Below, piece by piece: positions 1,894 to 12,399 of a stretch of 40,129 nt of DNA. The stretch is from Gammaproteobacteria bacterium (GTDB lineage: Bacteria; Pseudomonadota; Gammaproteobacteria; Steroidobacterales; Woeseiaceae). How positions within the stretch are numbered: the first letter of the stretch is position 1; every line of letters begins with the position of its first letter. Position numbers and translations under genes: made by a program. The notes under the pieces were generated by a model. That model worked only from the letters and a program-made list of their open reading frames with translations, was not told where the DNA came from and made no database searches. The stretch covers positions 1 to 40,129 of the forward strand of contig JAOUGX010000026.1 in assembly GCA_029865385.1 (NCBI GenBank), read 5' to 3'.

Positions 1894-3192
1894 CTGGCCA
1901 GTCAGACCAAGAAATTCCTGTTCGTATCGATAGACGCACTGATCAGCGACATCGCCTGGCAGGTCGTCAAGGAAGGGCAAAAAGTCCGGTATTACATCGA
2001 AAACGAAACCGAGCGCTCCATCGGCGATGGTTTCGTGCCCAAGGTCGATGACTGGGAGTCTCATGTCGACTGGGCCGATATCATCATATTCGACGACGTT
2101 CTCGGCCAGGGCGAGAAAGCCAAGAAGTTGCGCGATGCCGGCAAGCGCGTCGTCGGCGGCACACCGTATACAGACAGGCTCGAGGACGACCGGACGTTCG
2201 GCCAGCAGGAACTCAAGCGTCACGGTGTTTCGATCATCCCGTTCCAGGAATTCAGCGATTTCGACACCGCGATAGACTATGTCAGCAATAACCCGGCACC
2301 GTACGTAATCAAGCCGAGTGGCGAGGCACAGAACATCAAGCGGCTGTTGTTTGTCGGACAGGAAGACGATGGCAAGGATGTTGTGCACGTGTTGCAGTCC
2401 TACAAGGCCGTGTACGCGGATACCGTAAAAATATTCCAGCTGCAGCGGCGCGTGCGTGGTGTAGAGGTAGCGGTCGGCGCATTTTTCAACGGCAGCGACT
2501 TCATGATGCCGATCAACGTCAACTTCGAACACAAACCGCTCTTTCCCGGCGATATCGGCCCGGCAACCGGCGAGATGGGCACCTGCATGTACTGGAGCGG
2601 GCCGAACCGGATATACACAGCTACGCTCGCGAAACTGCGCGATCGCCTGGCCGAGGAAAAATACGTCGGCTACATTGACGTCAACTGTATCGTCAACGGA
2701 CAGGGCATTTATCCGCTGGAGTTCACGGCCCGCTTCGGCTACCCCAGCATCAGCATCCAGGCAGAGGGCCTGTCGATGCCGATCGGCGAGTTTCTTCTCG
2801 GCATGGCAGATGGGTCGCTGAAAGATTTCAAGACGAAGAAGGGTTTCCAGATCGGTCTTCGCGTCGTGGTTCCGCCCTTTCCTTACAACGATCCAAAGAC
2901 TTTCGAGGCCAATTCAAAAGACCGGGTGGTCATTTTTCGCAAGCCCAACTTTGACGGGATTCACATCGAGGACGTCAAGCTGGTCAAGGGCGAATGGCTC
3001 ATCACCGGACACACCGGCGTCGTATTGATAGTTACCGGCCAGGGCATTTCGGTAAAACAGGCGCAGGCCCAAGCCTACCAGCGGGTCAAGAACATTCTGA
3101 TTCCCAACATGTATTACCGAAAAGACATCGGCGATCGCTGGTTCGAGGACCATGACAAGCTGCACTCCTGGGGATACCTCAGGGAAAGTTGA
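1894..3192 (+). CDS. PurD-like ATP-grasp protein (phosphoribosylamine-glycine ligase family), CTG start
   Basis: Reading from CTG 1894 gives 432 residues, close to the length of PurD enzymes, which ligate glycine to phosphoribosylamine in purine synthesis. The N-terminal part (KKFLFVSIDALISDIAWQVV) reads as the pre-ATP-grasp nucleotide-binding-like domain and would be lost if the GTG at 2035 were used. ATP-grasp signatures include YVIKPSGEAQ in the central region and, later, YVGYIDVNCIV followed by YPLEFTARFGYP, with a metal-binding Glu and Arg as in PurD. It is more diverged than housekeeping PurD, so the substrate may differ and no symbol is given. The MFS transporter follows after 94 bases. 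The CTG start is supported by GGAG at 1884 and by the absence of any other start. Confidence 0.75.
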   Translation: MASQTKKFLFVSIDALISDIAWQVVKEGQKVRYYIENETERSIGDGFVPKVDDWESHVDWADIIIFDDVLGQGEKAKKLRDAGKRVVGGTPYTDRLEDDRTFGQQELKRHGVSIIPFQEFSDFDTAIDYVSNNPAPYVIKPSGEAQNIKRLLFVGQEDDGKDVVHVLQSYKAVYADTVKIFQLQRRVRGVEVAVGAFFNGSDFMMPINVNFEHKPLFPGDIGPATGEMGTCMYWSGPNRIYTATLAKLRDRLAEEKYVGYIDVNCIVNGQGIYPLEFTARFGYPSISIQAEGLSMPIGEFLLGMADGSLKDFKTKKGFQIGLRVVVPPFPYNDPKTFEANSKDRVVIFRKPNFDGIHIEDVKLVKGEWLITGHTGVVLIVTGQGISVKQAQAQAYQRVKNILIPNMYYRKDIGDRWFEDHDKLHSWGYLRES

Positions 3193-3286: not shown

Positions 3287-4672
3287 ATGCCAGTTTTTTC
3301 GAACGACCCCGTTACCGAACGATCGCTGCAGCACTCGCTGAAAGACGCGACCGCATTCGCGACGATGACCGGGATCGGCGAAACCTACCTGTCTGCCTTT
3401 GCGCTGTTTCTGAAAGCCAGCACACCACAGATCGGGCTGCTCGCATCGCTGCCGCCGATGCTGGCATCGCTGGTGCAACTGCTGTCCGCATGGCTCGGCC
3501 GCGTTACGGGCCGCCGCAAGGCGATCATCATTGCAGGTGCCAGCATTCAGGCCTTTGCCTGGATTCCGATTCTCTGGCTGCCCTTGTTGCTGCCGGAACA
3601 CGCGGTGCCGCTATTGATCGCCTCTGTCGTGCTTTATCACGGAGGCGCCCACCTGACGACACCGCAATGGAGCAGCCTGCTTGGCGATATCGTACCGCCG
3701 CGCAAGCGTGGCCGCTTCTTTGCCCAGCGCACCCGCCTGATCACGGCCATGACGTTTGCATCGCTGATGACCGGCGGCCTGTTGCTGCATTTCTTCACTG
3801 AGGACAGCAAGACGCTTTACGGTTTCATTGTGCTGTTCAGCACGGCGATTGTCGCGCGTCTGGTTTCGATCTATCACCTTTCACGAATGCACGATCCGTC
3901 CGGTCATGTTGCCGCGCTGGAGTTTCCGAGCGGGCGTGACTGGTGGGAACGAATACGCGATTCGAACGCTGTGCGGTTCTCTCTTTTTTTCGCCCTGATG
4001 CAATTCTCGGTCGCGATCGCATCACCGTTCTTTACTGTTTACATGTTGCGCGATCTGGAGTTCTCCTACCTTGCGTTTACTGTGAACACCGGAACCGCCA
4101 TCCTCGCGCAGTTCCTGACCCTGTCCCAATGGGGACGGATCAGCGACGTGTTTGGCAATCGTCGTATTCTTGTCGTCACCGGCCTGTTCATACCGGTCAT
4201 GCCGCTACTGTGGACGTTCTCGAGCAATATCTGGTACCTGATTGCAATCCAGGCTCTCAGTGGATTTTCCTGGGCGGGCTTCAGCCTTAGCGCCAGCAAT
4301 TTTATCTACGACCTGATCAGCCCGAACCGTCGCGCCACCTATCTTGCCGTGCACAATGTGCTGGCGAGCGTTGGCATCTTCACCGGCGCCGTGCTCGGCG
4401 GTTATCTTGGAACGGTCATGCCAACGGAACTGACCCTTTTCGGCCATAGCTACAGCTGGCTGAGTCCGCTGTATGGCGTATTTGTCGTGTCGACCATCGC
4501 GCGTGCGGCCGTGGTCGCGTTATTGACGCCCAAGCTTCGCGAGGTTCGGGCAGTCCGCGAGATCTCTTTGCGCCAGGTAATCTTTCGCGTTACCAGAATG
4601 AACGCGCTGGCGGGACTGGTATTCGACATCGTCGGATCAAAAGGCGATCGTTCCGCGGGCGACAAGGAATAG
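3287..4672 (+). CDS. MFS transporter
   Basis: A 461-residue inner-membrane protein starting at ATG 3287. It has about twelve hydrophobic segments and a charged central loop (about residues 210-235), as in the major facilitator superfamily. A motif-A-like basic loop is visible at LGDIVPPRKRGRFFAQRTR, between early membrane helices, and RISDVFGNRR marks the equivalent loop in the second half. The short basic loop GRVTGRRKAI is also typical. Substrate cannot be told from sequence. It follows the PurD-like gene in the same direction with a 94-base gap, so co-transcription is possible. It is convergent with the GNAT gene, with a REP doublet between them. Confidence 0.85.
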   Translation: MPVFSNDPVTERSLQHSLKDATAFATMTGIGETYLSAFALFLKASTPQIGLLASLPPMLASLVQLLSAWLGRVTGRRKAIIIAGASIQAFAWIPILWLPLLLPEHAVPLLIASVVLYHGGAHLTTPQWSSLLGDIVPPRKRGRFFAQRTRLITAMTFASLMTGGLLLHFFTEDSKTLYGFIVLFSTAIVARLVSIYHLSRMHDPSGHVAALEFPSGRDWWERIRDSNAVRFSLFFALMQFSVAIASPFFTVYMLRDLEFSYLAFTVNTGTAILAQFLTLSQWGRISDVFGNRRILVVTGLFIPVMPLLWTFSSNIWYLIAIQALSGFSWAGFSLSASNFIYDLISPNRRATYLAVHNVLASVGIFTGAVLGGYLGTVMPTELTLFGHSYSWLSPLYGVFVVSTIARAAVVALLTPKLREVRAVREISLRQVIFRVTRMNALAGLVFDIVGSKGDRSAGDKE

Positions 4673-4775: not shown

Positions 4776-5258
4776 TCAAAGCGTTTTAGCGTAAATGACC
4801 TTGGCATCGCCCGGCGCGTAGAAGTCATCGAGCACGGCCGCCTTCCGGTAGCCGCAGCGCTCATAGAAAGCCCGAGTCGGCGCATACTTTTCACGTCCGG
4901 CGGTATCGACGAACATCTGTGTCGTGCCCAGCCCTTTGGCAAGTCGCTCCGATTCGCGAATCAGTTGGCCGCCAAGCCCGCTGCGTTGCTTGCCGGGCGC
5001 AACGGCGATCCAGTACAGGTCGCAACTGGATACTGTCATCGGAATGGCACCGAAGCACGTATAACCTAGCAGTCTCCCCGAATCGTCCGGAGCGTCCGCA
5101 AACACGAACTCGTAGCCGCTGGACTTGCCATTCGCGAGAGTCTCATCGACCAGTTCGACAGCGACCTCCACTTCTTCATCGGTAAAGAAACCGGTCGCGG
5201 CAACCAACTCGCGCACGGCCGCAGAATCGCTTTCGCGTACGGCCGTGCGCCACTTCAT
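4776..5258 (-). CDS. GNAT-family N-acetyltransferase (last gene of the kamA operon)
   Basis: A 160-residue protein starting MKWRTAVRESD at ATG 5258. The ATG overlaps the TGA of the upstream GNAT-deacetylase gene as ATGA, which fixes the start and shows translational coupling. The acetyl-CoA-binding motif A is clear as IAVAPGKQRSGLGGQLI, and the conserved C-terminal segment appears as TRAFYERCGYRK. The N-terminal part includes WRTAVRESDSAAVREL, typical of GNATs that acetylate amino groups. Substrate is unknown. In this operon, beta-lysine or an amide derived from it is the natural candidate, by analogy with beta-lysine acetyltransferases that accompany lysine 2,3-aminomutase in osmolyte synthesis. 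That link is inference. Confidence 0.88.
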   Translation of the reverse strand: MKWRTAVRESDSAAVRELVAATGFFTDEEVEVAVELVDETLANGKSSGYEFVFADAPDDSGRLLGYTCFGAIPMTVSSCDLYWIAVAPGKQRSGLGGQLIRESERLAKGLGTTQMFVDTAGREKYAPTRAFYERCGYRKAAVLDDFYAPGDAKVIYAKTL

Positions 5259-7030
5259 TTTTGTTTGCTTTTCCTGGCCGGAGCCACGGCGGGCGTGCCC
5301 GGCATGCCTTCCCACAGACCGGTGAAAAAATGGCGCGCATTGACACCCAGTGTCTGCGTCTTGTAACCACCTTCCTGCACAACCAACGTGGGCAATCCGA
5401 GTGCGCCGATCATGCGGCCGTTTTCACGAAAGTCCTTCGTCATCAGGCGGAACGAACCTGTCGGATCACCTTTCGCTGTGTCGAGCCCAAGTGCCAATAC
5501 CAGAAACTGGGGCTTGAACTTTTGAAGTTTCGTCAGCGCTTCTGCGAGAACCTTTCGGTACTGCGGTCCGTCAAGATTTTCCTGAAGCGGGTAATTCAGG
5601 TTGAACCCCTTACCCTCGTCTTCGCCCTTTTCGTCGTCAAACCCTGAAAAGTACGGGTAGCTGTAGCGGGGATGGCCATGCAGGGAAATCGTGAAAACGT
5701 CCTTTCTCTTGTAGAAGATGTCCTGTGCGCCGTTGCCGTGATGGTAGTCGATGTCCAGCAATACAACCCGACCATGCTGACTCAGGTGATGTGCGGCAAT
5801 TGCGGATGAATTGAAGTAACAGAATCCGCCAAATGCTTCGTGTTCGGCATGGTGTCCTGGCGGCCTGACCAGGGCATACGCGGCACGATTGCCGTCCAGC
5901 AGGCAATCGGCGCCAGTCATTGCGCAGTCCACGGAGCGACGCGCTGCCTTGTATGCATTCGCATTCAACGGGGTAAACGTGTCGATGCAATAGTAACCGG
6001 CGCGAAGCGGCAGTTCTTTCGGCGGCCTCGAGTGATTTCGCACCGGAAACACGTACGGGTAGACGGACTTTCCCGGCGGTACGTTCTCGCAAGCGAGCTT
6101 CAGGAACTGCACGAACTCGGGTTTATGCACCTGCTCGATTACGCCGATACCGAATTTTCGCGCCTGAATTGTTTCGAACAACTGGGTACGATCCAGTTCC
6201 TTGGTAATCGACTGGATTCGGACCGGCGCCTCGACGTAACCACGATCGTTGACATGATGAATGGCGTGCTTGTCGTTCACTATCAGTGCAATGCGTCGCT
6301 GTCGCGGTCGATGTTCTGCAGCCTTGTCCGGTTCCTTGATATAGCGAGGCTCACGCAGCCTGACCGGATTGTCCTTGATCGATTTGACGATCTTCTCGAT
6401 GTATTCGGGTGAACAGACATTGGCATATTTGCGATCGAGAATCGCCCGGATGATCTTCCGCGCCTGTTCGCGCTCCAGCACCTTGTCGTCCTGGCCGAGA
6501 TTATCGAATACTAGGTACGGTGGATCTGTGTCGTTCTCAGTCAGGGGCGTTTCATAAGCTGTGTTCGCAATCGGTCGAGCGCCGTATCGCTCGTAGAAGC
6601 GAAGTCTTGCCACGTTCTGTTTACGAATTCCCGGGTCGGGAGACAAGGCCGGATCGTCCGGCAGGCATTCCAGGAAAATACCGCACACGCCGAGTTGAAA
6701 AGCCTCCTCGCGTACCCGGGAATACAATGCACCGCCAATGCCACCGCCGGTCTCACCGCGCCCGGCGCAAACGTAGTCGAGATAACTGAACTCGAGATCC
6801 GGCGCGTGCAGCAGCATCGCGAACCCTCGCACGGTAGCATCACCGTCTTCTGCGACCAGCAAAATCGAGCGAAATCGATACTTGAGCGGATTGGCCAGTT
6901 GCGAGGGCAGTTTGGCAATGTCCTTCTCACTGAGGTCATTGAACTGCACACGGAGCATCGCCTGAACCTGGCTCAGCAGCTGCTTGTTCGTCGGCGTTGT
7001 AACGTCGAAAACTTTGTGAATTCGAAACAT
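5255..7030 (-). CDS. Fusion of GNAT acetyltransferase and histone deacetylase/acetylpolyamine amidohydrolase
   Basis: A 591-residue two-domain protein from ATG 7030. Residues about 50-160 form a GNAT domain with the acetyl-CoA loop GRGETGGGIGGALY (90-103) and the motif VARLRFYERYGARP. Residues about 245-575 form an arginase-fold deacetylase: RPPGHH at 389-394 (paired His393/His394), DIDYHHGNG (zinc ligands Asp428 and His430), LGLDTAKGDP (third zinc ligand Asp517) and EGGY (Tyr556, catalytic tyrosine). All key deacetylase residues are present, so it should be active. The family removes acetyl groups from lysine or polyamine amines. Having acetylation and deacetylation in one chain is unusual. 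The gene lies 39 bases after the second ATP-grasp gene and overlaps the next GNAT by ATGA. Likely cytoplasmic. Confidence 0.9.
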   Translation of the reverse strand: MFRIHKVFDVTTPTNKQLLSQVQAMLRVQFNDLSEKDIAKLPSQLANPLKYRFRSILLVAEDGDATVRGFAMLLHAPDLEFSYLDYVCAGRGETGGGIGGALYSRVREEAFQLGVCGIFLECLPDDPALSPDPGIRKQNVARLRFYERYGARPIANTAYETPLTENDTDPPYLVFDNLGQDDKVLEREQARKIIRAILDRKYANVCSPEYIEKIVKSIKDNPVRLREPRYIKEPDKAAEHRPRQRRIALIVNDKHAIHHVNDRGYVEAPVRIQSITKELDRTQLFETIQARKFGIGVIEQVHKPEFVQFLKLACENVPPGKSVYPYVFPVRNHSRPPKELPLRAGYYCIDTFTPLNANAYKAARRSVDCAMTGADCLLDGNRAAYALVRPPGHHAEHEAFGGFCYFNSSAIAAHHLSQHGRVVLLDIDYHHGNGAQDIFYKRKDVFTISLHGHPRYSYPYFSGFDDEKGEDEGKGFNLNYPLQENLDGPQYRKVLAEALTKLQKFKPQFLVLALGLDTAKGDPTGSFRLMTKDFRENGRMIGALGLPTLVVQEGGYKTQTLGVNARHFFTGLWEGMPGTPAVAPARKSKQK

Positions 7031-7069
7031 GATTTTCCAGAGCGCTGCGAAAGTGCAGGCGTCGAACGA

Positions 7070-8098
7070 TTATCCGGTCCGGCGATACGACAGTAAAGCG
7101 GGACGCCGTGCGGCCAGTACGACCCGTTCGATCAGTTTTTCAAAGCGGATGCCGGCCTCCAGCGCCGCCGCAGCAAATCCCGCATCCTGAGAAAGGCAGG
7201 GATTGGCATTGATCTCCAGCACCCATGGATCCCCGTGCGAATCGAGCCGCAGGTCAATCCGTGCGTAGCCACGCAGCCCGAATACTTTCCAGCACTGCTC
7301 GACTATGGATTTCAGCCGGTTTCGCTCGCCGTCCGCCAGAGTAGGAAACACGCGGCGCGTCGCCGAGTACTCCGGAGCACTTTCGTCCCACTTCGCCGCA
7401 TATCCGACGATCCTGGGCTTGCCCTTCGGATAGTCCACGAACGTCATTTCTGCAACCGGCAGGATGTAGGGCTGCCCGTCCTGCTCGAGAACAGAAATGT
7501 TGAATTCACGCCCGTCGACAAATTTCTCCGCGAACCATTCGCCGCCATGTGCGGCCTCGCTTTCCGCCATTCTCGCGTGCGCCGCTTCGGTACCCTTGAC
7601 GACACAGCCGTCGTCCATGCCGAACGACGCATGCTCCCAGACCGACTTGACTATCCAGATGCTGTCACTATCGTTGCAAACGTCGCTGCGCGTGAAATAA
7701 GAAGGCGTGGGTATCGCATGTAACTGCATGAGACTCTTCGCCAGCAACTTTTGCGAGCTGGTGTAAATCGCATCGGCGTCTGAGCCGGTATACGCGATTT
7801 TTGCCACGCCCAGCGCCGCCGGCAGGAGGTGAATCAACCTGCCGTCTCCGCCCAGGGCCTCTACCAGGTTAAAAACACAACCAGCGTCATGCATTCTAAT
7901 AGCAGCAATCGTCGACTGAAGGTCCAGCCCTGTTGGCAGAACGCTGACCCGCCAGCCGAGCTTTTTCATCGCAGCCGATACTTGCTCGACCTGAACCAGC
8001 GCGTCTGACTCGTCCGGGCGCGCGTCCGCCCCGATCGCCTCGTGCACCACGAGGACGGACAATGGCGTGGACCTAATAGGGAAACTGTCAGTGTGCAA
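7070..8098 (-). CDS. ATP-grasp amide ligase, D-Ala-D-Ala-ligase-like (second of pair)
   Basis: A 342-residue ATP-grasp protein. The longest frame begins with TTG at 8098, immediately after the TAG of the preceding ligase gene; another TTG at 8062 (residue 13) is possible. Ligase features include FNLVEALGG (76-84), where D-Ala-D-Ala ligases have their FN..HG loop, a central ATP-grasp region (WIVKSVWEHASFG, then FAEKFVDGREFNISVL), and the metal site RIDLRLD (280-286) followed by LEINANPCL with Glu295 and Asn297. Such enzymes join a carboxylate to an amine through an acyl phosphate. It differs strongly from its neighbour, so the two probably act on different substrates or successive steps. The cell-wall D-Ala-D-Ala ligase role is unlikely in this context. 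Confidence 0.85.
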   Translation of the reverse strand: MHTDSFPIRSTPLSVLVVHEAIGADARPDESDALVQVEQVSAAMKKLGWRVSVLPTGLDLQSTIAAIRMHDAGCVFNLVEALGGDGRLIHLLPAALGVAKIAYTGSDADAIYTSSQKLLAKSLMQLHAIPTPSYFTRSDVCNDSDSIWIVKSVWEHASFGMDDGCVVKGTEAAHARMAESEAAHGGEWFAEKFVDGREFNISVLEQDGQPYILPVAEMTFVDYPKGKPRIVGYAAKWDESAPEYSATRRVFPTLADGERNRLKSIVEQCWKVFGLRGYARIDLRLDSHGDPWVLEINANPCLSQDAGFAAAALEAGIRFEKLIERVVLAARRPALLSYRRTG

Positions 8099-9121
8099 CT
8101 ATGCTGCCAGCGAAGCGGTTCGCTGCTGAGTGCTGCAGCGCTGCACGGCTGAATTCATGATGCGGCCGATAAGCGATGTGTACTCAACACCGATCATGGT
8201 TGCCATGATAGGAAGATCCGAATGTTCCGGATGAATTCCGGCCAGCGGATTCACTTCGATGAAACTGACCTGCCCCTGGTCATCCAGCCGAACATCGATT
8301 CGGCCGGCGTCCCGGCAACCGAGTGCACGCCAGGCGCGAACGGCCAGCGACTCGACCTCCCGCCTGAGCTTGCCGGAGGGCAGCAACTTGTACTTGACCA
8401 GCTCCTCGCAATTTTCCTTGTTGTTGTAGGAGTAGACCTCGGCATCCGCATCCGGCAACAACTCGATTTCGAGGGTTGCCAAAGCAGCGGCTTTCCTGCC
8501 CGTGCCCAGAATGCCAACCGTGAACTCGCGTCCCGGCAGAAATCGCTCGACGAGAACAGGTTGCTTGTATTCCTTCAGAAGCTTGCGGCAAACGTTCTGC
8601 AGTTCTGTCGCATTTGTGATCTTCGAATTGGCGCTGATGCCTTTGCCGGTGCCCTCTGCAATGGGCTTCGCGAACAAGGGATACGGCAGGTTTACGTTCT
8701 TGAGACATGCGAGATCGTGCACGACCGCATAGTCCGGCGTAGCAACGCCTGCGGCACGAACGACATCCTTGGTCATGCCTTTGTGCAGCGTGAGCGCACA
8801 GGCCAGCGTATCCGAGAACACGTAGGGTATCTGGTAGGCGTCCAGCAGCGCCGGCACCTGCGCCTCGCGACCGATTCCGTGCATGCCCTCGCATATATTG
8901 AACACGAGGTCCCAGCGGTCTCCCGCGACCAGTCTTGCAGCAAGCTGTTTGACGTGACCGATACGGTCGACCCGGTAACCCAGCTTGACCAGCGCAGCCT
9001 CGATGCTCTCGATGGTGTCGGCGCGATCGAACTCGGCCGTTTCAATGTCGCTGAAGCCGGCTTCGAGGTAGGCATCGCGCAGGTCGTACGTCAGGCCTAT
9101 ACGCAATTCTGACGGGCTCAT
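8099..9121 (-). CDS. ATP-grasp amide ligase, D-Ala-D-Ala-ligase-like (first of pair)
   Basis: A 340-residue protein from ATG 9121, overlapping the kamA stop as ATGA. Domain order follows D-Ala-D-Ala ligase: an N-terminal domain with FNICEGMHG (74-82), the lid and lysine region YPLFAKPIAEGTGKGIS (147-163), LVERFLPGREFTVGIL (190-205), and the metal-binding end RIDVRLD (274-280) followed by FIEVNPLAGIHPEHSDLP with Glu289 and Asn291. The segment GIHPEHSDLP is typical of D-Ala-D-Ala ligase homologues of unknown substrate. Catalysis would be ATP-dependent amide bond formation in the cytoplasm. The position directly after lysine 2,3-aminomutase suggests that beta-lysine is one substrate; this is inferred, not shown. 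Confidence 0.87.
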   Translation of the reverse strand: MSPSELRIGLTYDLRDAYLEAGFSDIETAEFDRADTIESIEAALVKLGYRVDRIGHVKQLAARLVAGDRWDLVFNICEGMHGIGREAQVPALLDAYQIPYVFSDTLACALTLHKGMTKDVVRAAGVATPDYAVVHDLACLKNVNLPYPLFAKPIAEGTGKGISANSKITNATELQNVCRKLLKEYKQPVLVERFLPGREFTVGILGTGRKAAALATLEIELLPDADAEVYSYNNKENCEELVKYKLLPSGKLRREVESLAVRAWRALGCRDAGRIDVRLDDQGQVSFIEVNPLAGIHPEHSDLPIMATMIGVEYTSLIGRIMNSAVQRCSTQQRTASLAA

Positions 9122-10422
9122 GAGCGTTCTCCCGTGGCAACCTGAACCGGTGTGCCACTATCCGGATAGCGGTAGGTGCCGCCGTCGTAGCTGTTCAACA
9201 GCAGGTCGCCATTCTCGTAACCAACGACATAGTCCGGTGCCAGCGGGATCTTGCCGCCGCCGTTCGGCGCATCGACAACAAAGGTCGGCACCGCATAGCC
9301 CGTTGTATGCCCGCGCAAGCCACGAATCAGTTCGACGCCCTTCGATACCGGCGTGCGGAAATGAGCAGAACCCGAGATCGGATCACACTGATACAGGTAG
9401 TAGGGTTTCACCCGGATCTTCAGCAGCCCGTGCATCAGTTGTTTCAAGGTGTCGACGCTATCGTTCACCTCCTTCAACAGGACGGTCTGGCTGCCCAGCG
9501 GAATACCGGCATCGGCCAATCGCCCGCAAGCTTCCGCCACTTCCGGGGTCAGCTCGTCGGGGTGCGTGAAATGCAGGCTCATCCAAAGCGGGTGATATCG
9601 CTTCAAGATGCGTGTCAACGACGGCGTGATACGCATTGGTTGCACCACCGGCTGCTTACTGCCTATGCGAATGAACTCGACATGCGGAATCTTTCGCAGG
9701 CGACGCAGGATGTATTCCAGCCGATCGTCGTCGAGACTTAAGGGGTCGCCACCGGAAATCAGTACGTCCCGAACTACCGGGGTCCGCTCGATGTAATCCA
9801 GCGCCAACTCGATATCCGTTTTCTTGACGCTGCGCTCGCCGACGGAACCGACCATGCGGGCCCGGGTGCAGTAACGGCAGTAGACCGAACAGAAATTCGT
9901 GACCAGCAGCAATACGCGATCCGGGTAGCGGTGCACCAGGCCCGGCACCGGGCTGTGCGAGTCCTCGCCAAGCGGATCTTCGTTCTCGCCGCGGCCTGTC
10001 TCGTACTCGCCCAGCACGGGCACGACCGTTCGGCGCAGGGCCTGGCCCGCGTCCCGCTGATCGAGCAGCGAGGCGTAGTATGGTGTTATGCCTACCGGCA
10101 GCGCGCCGGTATGGCGACGAATTGCGGAAATCTCTTCGTCGGAAAGCGTGATCATCCTCTCCAGGTCGGCAAGCGTGCGAACCCGGTTTCGGTTCTGCCA
10201 TCGCCAGTCGTTCCAGTCTTCGACTGTCGCGTCCGGATAGCAGCGGCGCAGGAACTCCGCCGACCGCTCGGAAACGCGAAATTTCGCCCGCTCGCGTTTT
10301 GCGATGGTCTGGGCGAGGCGAACAGGAGGGATATTCTTGGATAGGGGGGGTTCAGAAGGGGCAGGACGACTTTCGGCCGCGCTCCCCGGAGGTTCTTCCG
10401 CGACGACTCTGGCGGTTTTCAT
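9118..10422 (-). CDS. kamA: Lysine 2,3-aminomutase (radical SAM, PLP)
   Basis: A 434-residue enzyme from ATG 10422, preceded by AAGGA five bases upstream. It converts L-lysine to L-beta-lysine using an iron-sulfur cluster, S-adenosylmethionine and PLP. The radical SAM motif is C178-SVY-C182-RY-C185. The PLP lysine is Lys391 in PNGGGKIPL. Asp347 (QCDP) and Asp384 (VVDAP) match the two acidic residues that bind the lysine substrate in clostridial enzyme, which favours lysine over glutamate. HFRTPVSKG and GLRGHTTGY are near-identical family blocks. An N-terminal tail of about 40 Pro/Ser-rich residues is extra. It is too long, and in the wrong context, for EpmB of elongation factor P. It is the first gene of the five-gene operon. 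Confidence 0.93.
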   Translation of the reverse strand: MKTARVVAEEPPGSAAESRPAPSEPPLSKNIPPVRLAQTIAKRERAKFRVSERSAEFLRRCYPDATVEDWNDWRWQNRNRVRTLADLERMITLSDEEISAIRRHTGALPVGITPYYASLLDQRDAGQALRRTVVPVLGEYETGRGENEDPLGEDSHSPVPGLVHRYPDRVLLLVTNFCSVYCRYCTRARMVGSVGERSVKKTDIELALDYIERTPVVRDVLISGGDPLSLDDDRLEYILRRLRKIPHVEFIRIGSKQPVVQPMRITPSLTRILKRYHPLWMSLHFTHPDELTPEVAEACGRLADAGIPLGSQTVLLKEVNDSVDTLKQLMHGLLKIRVKPYYLYQCDPISGSAHFRTPVSKGVELIRGLRGHTTGYAVPTFVVDAPNGGGKIPLAPDYVVGYENGDLLLNSYDGGTYRYPDSGTPVQVATGERS

Positions 10423-10516
10423 TTCATTCCTTAGCGCTGCAGTTGGGCGACCTGCAATCGAAAACCGACCCGGCCCGTCGAGTCGTGCGGGATTTAGCCC
10501 GCCCTATTCGCGCGGT

Positions 10517-10544
10517 AATATATTTACAGACAAACGATTGTCAA
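10517..10544 (-). promoter_or_regulatory. Sigma-70-type promoter for the kamA operon
   Basis: On the minus strand, TTGACA (10544-10539) is followed by a 16-base spacer and TATATT (10522-10517). The -35 is a perfect consensus match and the -10 matches five of six bases. Transcription would start near 10510, giving a leader of about 90 bases before the kamA ATG at 10422. Confidence 0.75.
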
Positions 10545-10749: not shown

Positions 10750-12399
10750 GTGATCCGGCACCTGAATTTTTCGAATCTGCGCAATGATCTGTTCGGCGGA
10801 CTGACTGCAGCGATCGTCGCGCTTCCCCTTGCCCTGGCATTCGGCGTTGCCTCCGGAGCCGGCCCTGTGGCCGGATTGTACGGGGCGATCTGCGTCGGTT
10901 TTTTTGCCTCGCTGTTCGGCGGTACGCCCAGCCAGATCTCCGGACCGACCGGTCCGATGACCATCGTCGCCGCAACGGTATTCACGCATTACGGATCGAA
11001 TCCCTCACAGGCTTTCACGATCGTGATGATGGCCGGCCTCTTCCAGATACTGTTTGGTTACCTGAAGCTGGGACGCTACGTAAATCTGATGCCGTACCCG
11101 GTCATCTCCGGCTTCATGAACGGGATCGGCTGCATACTGATCGTGCTGCAACTCACACCCTTGCTCGGCTATCCGGCCCTCGGCAACGTTATCAACGCCA
11201 TTACTGTCCTGCCTGCCGATTTCAGCGATCCGAACTGGCACGCCGTGAGCATAGGCCTCGTCAGTTTCGGCATCTGCCTGCTGCTGCCGTTCCGCGTAGC
11301 CCGAGTCGTGCCTCCGCCAGTACTGGCGATAGCCGCAGGAGTGGCGCTCGTCGCCATACTGCCCGGCGCACCGGTCATAGGCGAAATCCCGACAGCGCTT
11401 CCGACTCTGCATATGCCGGTCTTTGATTTCGCCGACCTGAACCAGATGCTGATCTTCGCCGCCGTGATCGGCGGCCTGGGCTCCATCGACAGCCTTCTGA
11501 CCTCGCTGGTTGCCGATAACGTCACCCGGGACTTCCACGATTCCGACAGGGAGCTGACCGGCCAGGGCATTGGTAACCTGGTTTCCGGACTGCTCGGCGG
11601 CATTCCGGGGGCTGGCGCCACCATTCGCACGCTGAGCAATATCCGTGCCGGTGGTCGCACCCCACTGTCAGGCATGTTCCATGCCGTCGTCCTGCTCCTT
11701 ATCGCCCTCGGGATGGGGCCGCTGGTCGCTTATATCCCGCATGCGGCATTGGCCGGCATCTTGCTGAAGGTTGGGATCGATGTCATCGACTGGCGATTCC
11801 TGCGGCGAATGCATCGCGCGCCACGGGCCGACCTCGTCACTATGCTTATCGTGCTGGCGCTAACGGTGTTCGTAGACGTCATAACGGCAGTGGCTGCCGG
11901 CATGATCTTCGCCAGCCTGCTGTTCGTCAAAGAAACCGCAGATCTGCAAATCGAGTCGATCCGGACGATCTCACATGCCGACAACGAACATCTGCTGACC
12001 GACGAAGAACGCGCGCTGTTCCAGCGCTGCGGCGGCAAAGCGCTGATCCTGCACCTTTCCGGGCTGATGAGCTTCGGTGCGGCCAATGAGCTGGTGAGGC
12101 GAATGTCGCGTATCAGCGACTACGAAGTTCTGATCATCGATCTGCTTGATGTACCGAAAGTCGATGGCAGTGCCGCACTGGCACTGGAGGAAATAATGCA
12201 ATCCGCGGCACGCGCCAAACGGCAGGTTATCATCGTCGGTCTGAATTTCGCCGTTGCCAGACTGCTGGCGCGGCTCGGCATCCTGGATCTCGTGCAGGAA
12301 ACCCACCGGGTCACTACGCGACACGAAGCCGTGTCCAGGGCTGTTTCTATCGTCGAGGCCCGACATTTGCCTGTGGATGCTTATTCGCCACAAATCTGA
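10750..12399 (+). CDS. SulP-family anion transporter with STAS domain
   Basis: A 549-residue inner-membrane transporter beginning with GTG at 10750. The N-terminal two thirds contain the SulP membrane core, with LFGGLTAAIVALPLALAFG near residue 14, the SGPTGPMT loop (about 74-81), and GLGSIDSLLTSLVADNVTR, all typical of SulP carriers. The C-terminal part (about 440-540) is a STAS domain with VLIIDLLDVPKVDGSAALALEE. SulP proteins carry sulfate, bicarbonate or other anions, often with sodium or protons. The sequence does not fix the substrate. The MscS gene follows after 73 bases in the same direction. Confidence 0.9.
   Translation: MIRHLNFSNLRNDLFGGLTAAIVALPLALAFGVASGAGPVAGLYGAICVGFFASLFGGTPSQISGPTGPMTIVAATVFTHYGSNPSQAFTIVMMAGLFQILFGYLKLGRYVNLMPYPVISGFMNGIGCILIVLQLTPLLGYPALGNVINAITVLPADFSDPNWHAVSIGLVSFGICLLLPFRVARVVPPPVLAIAAGVALVAILPGAPVIGEIPTALPTLHMPVFDFADLNQMLIFAAVIGGLGSIDSLLTSLVADNVTRDFHDSDRELTGQGIGNLVSGLLGGIPGAGATIRTLSNIRAGGRTPLSGMFHAVVLLLIALGMGPLVAYIPHAALAGILLKVGIDVIDWRFLRRMHRAPRADLVTMLIVLALTVFVDVITAVAAGMIFASLLFVKETADLQIESIRTISHADNEHLLTDEERALFQRCGGKALILHLSGLMSFGAANELVRRMSRISDYEVLIIDLLDVPKVDGSAALALEEIMQSAARAKRQVIIVGLNFAVARLLARLGILDLVQETHRVTTRHEAVSRAVSIVEARHLPVDAYSPQI

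Follow-up and report, generated by a model that had tools for sequence, protein, structure and literature searches.

The route to the osmolyte N-epsilon-acetyl-beta-lysine is encoded in the ablAB arrangement, with KamA next to a GNAT acetyltransferase. A Ddl-like ATP-grasp ligase, MysD, has been recruited for mycosporine-like amino acids, which are protective small molecules. To our knowledge MysD systems use other substrates and include no aminomutase, and the likeness between MysD and the ligases described below is drawn from descriptions. In Bacillus subtilis, kamA is presumably flanked by genes for a GNAT (yodP) and a deacetylase-like protein (yodQ), and we know of no Ddl-like ligase gene beside it. 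In the part of the published account available to us (PMC6522883), B. subtilis kamA encodes a lysine 2,3-aminomutase that makes beta-lysine in vitro, and its physiological role in that species is given as unknown.

The locus examined here lies in a 40,129 nt stretch of DNA (the window) from a member of the Woeseiaceae. As in the ablA/ablB route, a lysine 2,3-aminomutase comes first and a GNAT is among the products, but AblB was not found, the GNAT is of another family and there are two ATP-grasp ligases in addition. The enzymes are of known kinds, and the pathway appears to be new. No description of the cassette was found in the literature, judged by titles and abstract openings in a coverage from which many subscription papers are absent, and NCBIfam contains no family specific to it. 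We argue that the operon probably belongs to a cassette, spread across many phyla, whose product is an N-acetylated amide or short peptide of beta-lysine.

Gene arrangement

Re-checking of the open reading frame positions confirmed the five tightly packed minus-strand genes at 4776–10422 that had been reported in the preliminary description (Table 1). ATGA overlaps were present at the kamA/AG1 and FUS/small GNAT junctions, and 39 bases separate AG2 from FUS. The start of AG2 abuts the stop of AG1 only if the TTG is the true start. A good upstream promoter had also been claimed, and the site listed is indeed the top-scoring one of the region, but the scan gave three promoter-like sites where shuffled sequence averages 2.3, which is what chance would give, so the number proves nothing. 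A terminator-like hairpin (10485–10466) was found between this site and kamA; the region contained five terminator-like sites against a mean of 6.4. No riboswitch was found as an Rfam match at gathering score in six sources (the window, L033, L041, L086, L101 and L118).

Table 1. Features of the kamA locus in the window
Feature	Description	Position	Strand	Remarks
kamA	AblA-type lysine 2,3-aminomutase (radical SAM, PLP), 434 aa	9118..10422	(-)	
AG1	D-Ala-D-Ala-ligase-like ATP-grasp ligase, 340 aa	8099..9121	(-)	
AG2	Second Ddl-like ATP-grasp ligase, 342 aa	7070..8098	(-)	TTG start uncertain
FUS	GNAT + acetylpolyamine-amidohydrolase-like deacetylase, 591 aa	5255..7030	(-)	Optional in cassette
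Small GNAT	GNAT, 160 aa	4776..5258	(-)	
Promoter-like site	TTGACA-16-TATATT	10517..10544	(-)	Read from 10544 to 10517; consensus match 11/12 positions

Two further genes, PurD-like (about 1900–3192) and MFS (3287–4672), were considered as cassette parts and dropped, as each was matched in 0/80 loci at 1e-8. Relatives of the MFS gene lay close to the cassette in just two of the stretches inspected, L041 (57.5%) and L231 (30%).

Conservation of the cassette

To compare neighbourhoods, we took the loci of the 80 AG1 relatives that ranked highest in similarity to the window, all from named genomes. Upstream of AG1 and on the same strand, kamA was found in 76/80 of these loci, at a median gap of 9.5 bases (65/76 gaps of 300 bases or less), and its retention there indicates that the genes are grouped by more than chance. 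AG2 was present in 71/80 and the small GNAT in 58/80, and the commonest order, kamA-AG1-AG2-GNAT, accounted for 39 of the loci. From these frequencies the core is kamA-AG1-AG2-GNAT and FUS is optional. The genes thus form a conserved unit as had been proposed, and the scattering in related genomes that was named beforehand as the outcome speaking against this was not seen. The central part given to the GNAT-deacetylase fusion did not hold up: FUS occurs in only 15/80 best loci, adjoins the cassette in 8/17 AG1-bearing genomes of the window's order and was found in 0/18 other genomes of the phylum sample.

Three kinds of fused gene (AG1-AG2, AG2-GNAT and FUS-GNAT, the last two involving the small GNAT), recognised among the open reading frames of draft genomes, tie the parts of the cassette together. 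Distance matrices were correlated for KamA-AG1 (r 0.79), AG1-AG2 (0.66), KamA-AG2 (0.65), AG1-GNAT (0.57), AG2-GNAT (0.74), AG1-HDAC (0.87) and the GNAT and HDAC parts of FUS (0.91), and for every pair 0/500 permutations gave a value as high. L080 and L032 are one contig; the tree and distance tests were made without L080, and both the set of 80 loci and the residue counts include it. The AG1 tree, from which L071 was left out, was made by a quick search without a mixture model.

In the window's order, AG1 was found in 17/196 genomes, with kamA adjacent in 16 and AG2 in all 17. A KamA scoring above 387 bits was present in 20/200 sampled genomes of the phylum, 19 of which also had AG1. AG1 relatives were found in 75/297 sampled genomes of one phylum and 45/294 of another, or 62/297 and 29/294 when a more distant AG1 group is left aside. 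Incomplete versions occur: among 18 further relatives from the phylum sample, nine that belong to a single genus had neither AG2 nor GNAT nearby, and one of these was also without kamA. G044 has AG1-AG2-FUS, and KamA was not found in its draft genome. Of 20 stretches picked by hand, mostly long contigs and six of them from the more distant group (about 40% identity), three had no kamA near AG1; in this count the second ligase of L221 and L222, with AG1 as best match, was not taken as AG2. The best loci span eight NCBI phylum labels, the Myxococcota label coming from titles that read only 'Deltaproteobacteria bacterium'.

Aminomutase

The KamA of the window scored 475.8 bits against TIGR03820, under the equivalog cut-off of 525.4, as did three further KamAs of the cassette (464.8, 489.6 and 522.4 bits), and 354.9 bits against the KamA-family model TIGR00238, above its cut-off of 199.2. 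Seven positions (C178, C182, C185, R187, D347, D384 and K391) were invariant in 97/97 aligned rows, in which one contig is counted twice. They include the CxxxCxxC radical-SAM cluster (C178, C182, C185) and the PLP lysine K391, roles that we assign on the assumption that they follow those in 2a5h. D347, D384, R187 and K391 align with D293, D330, R134 and K337 of 2a5h, the first three of which we take to be lysine-binding. The proposal that KamA is a lysine aminomutase is therefore well supported by the residues kept, and the enzyme very probably converts L-lysine to beta-lysine. A role in EF-P modification was considered and rejected; no second KamA-like gene was found in the genome (E 1e-3), and the ligases would be left unexplained.

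Ligases

AG1 and AG2 share the fold and ATP-grasp residues of the Ddl/Van enzymes and matched Dala_Dala_lig_C at 100 and 70 bits, respectively. Invariant positions were K114, K152, E192, R274, D276, E289 and N291 in AG1 (104/104 rows) and K117, K151 and N297 in AG2 (81/81 rows), where E295 was Glu in 75 and Asp in six. We take K114 and K152 of AG1 and K117 and K151 of AG2 to be the ATP-grasp lysines, and E289 and N291 of AG1 and E295 and N297 of AG2 to be the Mg-binding Glu/Asn. Unlike Ddl/Van, both proteins scored far under the Ddl cut-off (AG1 165.4 bits and AG2 107.1 bits, where NF002378 requires 243), and the position of Ddl Tyr216 was occupied by Glu in AG1 (93/104 rows) and by Trp (W237) in AG2 (81/81 rows). 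The genome has other Ddl-like genes elsewhere. The fold of AG2, predicted from an alignment of 40 rows (about every second one), had a pLDDT of 92.1 and its best PDB matches were Ddl. Judged from the alignments, the ATP-grasp core is intact in both ligases and the Ddl substrate-site position is altered, and both look active.

Acetyltransferases and deacetylase

FUS consists of a GNAT domain (about residues 1–200; Acetyltransf_1 23.6 bits, cut-off 20.7) and a deacetylase domain (about 248–571; Hist_deacetyl 253 bits). The deacetylase is nearest in sequence to the acetylpolyamine amidohydrolases (HDAC-like, e.g. 6phr and 3q9b), with 6phr the top PDB match at 247 bits. H393, H394, D428, H430 and D517 were invariant in 26/26 rows and Y556 in 25/25, and we assume that these are the zinc ligands and catalytic residues of the HDAC fold. 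FUS differs from those enzymes in its N-terminal GNAT and, in some genomes, a C-terminal GNAT as well. The N-terminal domain was predicted as a GNAT fold (pLDDT 89.1, alignment of 26 rows), and the 50 Foldseek and 50 VIA matches listed were all GNAT-type acetyltransferases or complexes holding one. Many GNATs matched at similar Z, protein and small-molecule acetyltransferases alike, so these fold matches do not establish what the domain does.

In three genomes FUS was found apart from kamA: KamA was not found in the drafts of G188 and G107, and kamA is on another contig in G139. Near stand-alone FUS, L037 has an AstE/AspA-like hydrolase, matched in L038 by a divergent fragment, and nothing among these neighbours names a substrate. 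Given this separation and its presence in a minority of loci, the substrate of FUS may not be beta-lysine. An acetylpolyamine-amidohydrolase-like domain would nevertheless suit beta-lysine, because beta-lysine contains a putrescine unit.

The small GNAT matched Acetyltransf_1 at 39 bits and has a solved relative, 2r7h (DDE_3044, Desulfovibrio; E 1.1e-41).

Neighbouring genes

Single-linkage clustering of neighbours in 93 loci gave no further gene family present in most of them. Of the broadest families, each scanned through one representative, sigma-54-activator-like proteins, grouped by clustering alone, were found in 21/93 loci (in six at no more than 500 bases from the core), CxxCxxCC proteins in 10/93 (nine within the core) and DUF47/PhoU-like proteins in 9/93 (within 500 bases in eight). 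A phosphate transporter accompanied the last in eight of the nine, the pair lying downstream of the cassette in 8/93. An ABC ATPase and a formamidopyrimidine-DNA-glycosylase-like protein were each found in 8/93 and a LysA-like protein in 5/93. We read these as neighbours typical of a lineage and not as cassette parts.

Possible pathway and alternatives

In the pathway that we favour, KamA would supply beta-lysine, and AG1 would use ATP to activate a carboxylate and form an amide in which beta-lysine is either donor or acceptor, as its family and operon context suggest. AG2, with its altered substrate site, would form a second amide bond, and the small GNAT would acetylate an amine of the product or an intermediate. 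In loci that have FUS, the GNAT domain of the fusion may place an acetyl group on beta-lysine at its 1,4-diamine (putrescine-like) end, and the deacetylase domain may take it off again. This acetyl could give temporary protection by keeping the activated acyl phosphate from cyclising or self-joining, or could serve in tuning or recycling the product. We know of no such protecting-group logic for beta-lysine. The role of the product is the weakest step; since most loci have no exporter or NRPS in common, our guess is a compatible solute or a stress metabolite. Carrier record titles name fen, groundwater and lake as well as marine samples, which does not favour an osmolyte.

The ligases might instead join beta-lysine to a macromolecule (protein, peptidoglycan or a lipid head group), which we consider unlikely. 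Ddl enzymes do serve cell-wall synthesis. EpmB, a KamA relative, serves EF-P modification (PMC6522883, in the part available). AG1 and AG2, however, resemble free-amino-acid ligases, and among families common to at least 3/93 loci, of which at most 29 representatives were inspected by eye and a few scanned, none occurring in most loci was seen to be an obvious target or a cell-wall or lipid enzyme. A little less likely still is that FUS is directed at proteins and not at a metabolite, as a reversible acetylation switch on KamA or the ligases comparable to AcuA/AcuC on acetyl-CoA synthetase. Acetyltransferase and deacetylase in one chain are what a switch needs, the N-terminal GNAT has likenesses to acetyltransferases of proteins as well as of small molecules, and BsAcuC substrates are ANL-family enzymes in the part of PMC11532494 available to us. 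Against this stand the affinity of the deacetylase domain to acetylpolyamine amidohydrolases and the lack of FUS in 65/80 best loci.

Nitrogen storage or lysine breakdown, in place of a protective metabolite, is improbable. KamA begins lysine degradation in clostridia (PMC6522883, in the part available), and a histidine kinase and an NtrC-like regulator lie between AG1 and kamA, but only in the one sub-family of L220, L221 and L225, and ATP-spending ligases do not fit breakdown. We give very little credence to the known acetyl-beta-lysine osmolyte pathway accompanied by ligase genes unrelated to it: KamA beside a GNAT is the ablAB arrangement, but AblB (TIGR03827, E 1e-10) was found in 0/30 AG1-bearing genomes, own genome included, against 3/14 control genomes (B. 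subtilis, a control, has AblB), the small GNAT had no AblB match at 1e-3, one relative reached 26 bits against a cut-off of 205.1, and the ligases are conserved together with kamA. This agrees with the earlier view that the known route is insufficient.

Implications

It is conceivable, if somewhat doubtful, that the products form an undescribed class of beta-lysine peptides or amides common in environmental bacteria, and that some lineages add and remove acetyl protection during assembly. Direct tests are feasible, as one of the loci (L144) comes from a named strain, Desulfatitalea alkaliphila M08but, and the 2r7h structure is available for a relative of the small GNAT. With the cassette under eight phylum labels and in a sizeable share of sampled genomes from two phyla, a common bacterial small molecule may still await identification. 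If the favoured pathway is correct, it would give the AblA-type aminomutase a purpose in the bacteria that carry it, would add beta-amino-acid amide bonds to metabolism that uses neither ribosome nor NRPS, and would provide new ligases for beta-peptide chemistry.

Organization of the operon in the window

The five minus-strand genes of the preliminary description were borne out on the window (see table), as was their spacing, with ATGA overlaps, a 39-base gap and an abutting stop and start, the start being a TTG and hence uncertain. The promoter proposed upstream of them fared less well: a site with 11 of 12 positions is present at 10544–10517, but the number of promoter-like sites in the region shows no excess over shuffled sequence (three against a mean of 2.3). 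Between this site and kamA lies a terminator-like hairpin with a T-rich tail, possibly an attenuator; the number of such hairpins was not above chance. Genes for a PurD-like ATP-grasp protein and an MFS transporter converge on the operon, and neither had a match among the 80 loci most similar to the window for AG1, the first ligase (threshold 1e-8). A BicA/SulP-like transporter is divergent from kamA.

Features of the window and of the loci compared (numbers with L)
Feature	Location	Position	Strand
kamA	window	9118–10422	minus
AG1, ligase	window	8099–9121	minus
AG2, ligase (TTG start, uncertain)	window	7070–8098	minus
FUS, GNAT-deacetylase fusion	window	5255–7030	minus
small GNAT	window	4776–5258	minus
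terminator-like hairpin	window	10466–10485	
PurD-like ATP-grasp protein	window	1900–3192	plus
MFS transporter	window	3287–4672	plus
BicA/SulP-like transporter	window	10750–12399	
FUS without adjoining kamA	L037	4022–5803	
FUS without adjoining kamA	L038	387–2204	
FUS without adjoining kamA	L039	9439–11208	
FUS without adjoining kamA	L042	497–2218	
CxxCxxCC protein	L086	8496–8984	
PhoU-like (DUF47) protein with phosphate transporter	L153	7464–8084	
PhoU-like (DUF47) protein with phosphate transporter	L149	3916–4917	
diaminopimelate-decarboxylase-like gene	L149	4953–6290	
kinase-regulator insert	L220	8130–10633	
AG1-AG2 fusion	L105		
AG2-GNAT fusion	L116, L141, L152, L224, L232, L234		
FUS-GNAT fusion	L041, L115, L120, L128, L140, L144, L147, L233		

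Conservation of the cassette

A search of the named genomes with an AG1 profile matched at least 584 stretches. A relative is encoded in 576 of them, from which the 80 highest-ranking were kept. In these 80, kamA was found upstream on the same strand in 76, AG2 in 71, the small GNAT in 58 and FUS in 15; contig ends account for one of four absences of kamA, one of nine of AG2 and 10 of 22 of the GNAT. The order kamA-AG1-AG2-GNAT was the commonest (39/80).

AG1 was present in 17 of 196 genomes of the window's order, with kamA adjacent in 16, AG2 in 17 and FUS in eight. The GNAT is adjacent in 14 of the 17, the remaining three loci breaking off at a contig end before it. In the phylum sample AG1 was present in 19 of 398 genomes, and the stretches fetched from the 18 besides the window's contained kamA in 17, AG2 in nine, the GNAT in five and FUS in none; the nine relatives without AG2 all belong to one genus. 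KamA scored above 387 bits in 20 of 200 phylum-sample genomes, and 19 of these 20 carry AG1, G272 being the only exception; in G376 the two genes are on different contigs. Two other phyla yielded AG1 in 75 of 297 and 45 of 294 genomes (E 1e-60), or in 62 and 29, by hand count of rows, once a more distant group (about 40% identity) was set aside. Twenty stretches of our own choosing from these phyla included kamA in 17, a protein labelled AG2 in 18, the GNAT in 13 and FUS in two. One genome (G880) has two complete kamA-AG1-AG2-GNAT cassettes (L230 and L231).

The fusions are open reading frames in draft genomes, where errors may occur, but their recurrence in different genomes speaks against this. 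For seven pairs of parts the correlation of distance matrices was in each case higher than in any of 500 permutations, a result that shared ancestry alone can produce in part. Phylum labels were mixed in places in the AG1 tree (23 changes against a possible minimum of seven).

Catalytic residues and domains

KamA scored highest against the lysine 2,3-aminomutase model, below its curated cut-off and above that of the KamA family. Alignment with 2a5h, the clostridial enzyme, places the cluster cysteines, the PLP lysine and residues that we take to bind lysine, and none of these positions varies among the 97 aligned KamAs, one contig being counted twice.

Family models match both ligases as Ddl-like ATP-grasp proteins. 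The ATP-grasp residues are kept in all 104 rows of AG1 and all 81 of AG2, save one Glu of AG2 that is Asp in six. Tyr216 of Ddl, whose position is confirmed by the Y216F entry 1iow in one alignment, is Trp in AG2 (81/81) and, by a second alignment, Glu in AG1 (93/104). In this second alignment the HG stretch of Ddl has its His replaced by Glu in AG1 (104/104). The AG2 structure model (pLDDT 92.1) had Ddl-type structures as its listed matches.

In FUS, a GNAT domain shares one chain with a deacetylase domain that is nearest to acetylpolyamine amidohydrolases and has conserved catalytic positions. A sequence search of the PDB gave no match for the N-terminus of FUS, but a GNAT fold is predicted for it (pLDDT 89.1). 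Among solved structures, 2r7h (protein DDE_3044 from a Desulfovibrio) is clearly related to the small GNAT. Since FUS is optional and occurs in the draft genomes G188 and G107, where no KamA was found, it could act on a different acetylated amine. Stand-alone FUS genes in L037 and L038 are divergent from an AstE/AspA-like hydrolase, and G107 has two FUS genes. L036 carries AG1-AG2-FUS without kamA, and KamA was not found in that draft genome (G044) at E 1e-60.

Other neighbours

Among 93 loci compared, no further family was common to most. A CxxCxxCC-type zinc/iron-chelating family occurred in 10, inside the core span in nine (mostly titled Planctomycetota and Desulfobacter-like); in L086 it lies between kamA and AG1. 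PhoU-like proteins were within 500 bases of the core in eight, and all of these loci but L108 also have a phosphate transporter. Both families occur in eight of the 93 loci, and in L153 and L149 they are directly downstream of the cassette. Sigma-54-activator-like proteins were within 500 bases in six. These neighbours may reflect lineage habits or regulation, and do not name the product. In five loci a diaminopimelate-decarboxylase-like family lies at a distance of 1.7–1.9 kb from the core, and four of the five also have the phosphate transporter; the L149 gene scored 300.2 bits against TIGR01048 (cut-off 297.9). In three genomes of the more distant AG1 group (L220, L221, L225), AG1 and kamA are separated by genes for a PAS-type histidine kinase, an NtrC-like regulator and a conserved protein of short length.

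A proposed route to β-lysine amides

AblB defines the acetyl-β-lysine osmolyte route. It was found in three of 14 control genomes, all three also with KamA, and in none of 30 AG1-bearing genomes; a second KamA-like gene is lacking in the genome of the window. KamA needs an outlet for β-lysine. AG1 and AG2, which look active and are conserved with kamA, are therefore most likely to form amide bonds with β-lysine, the GNAT capping an amine. FUS may deal with an acetyl group that is present for a time, or serve in recycling of the product. β-Lysine (3,6-diaminohexanoate) includes a 1,4-diaminobutane (putrescine) unit, so on chemical reasoning the acetylpolyamine-amidohydrolase domain suits it. 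With no exporter common to most loci, a cytosolic solute as the product is plausible at most, and the titles of the carriers, from fresh water as well as salt water, do not favour it.

No NCBIfam family (E up to 0.001) is specific by name to AG1, AG2, FUS or the small GNAT, and a full-text literature search, judged by titles and the start of abstracts, returned no description of such a cassette. The kinds of enzyme are known; the pathway is widespread and apparently undescribed.
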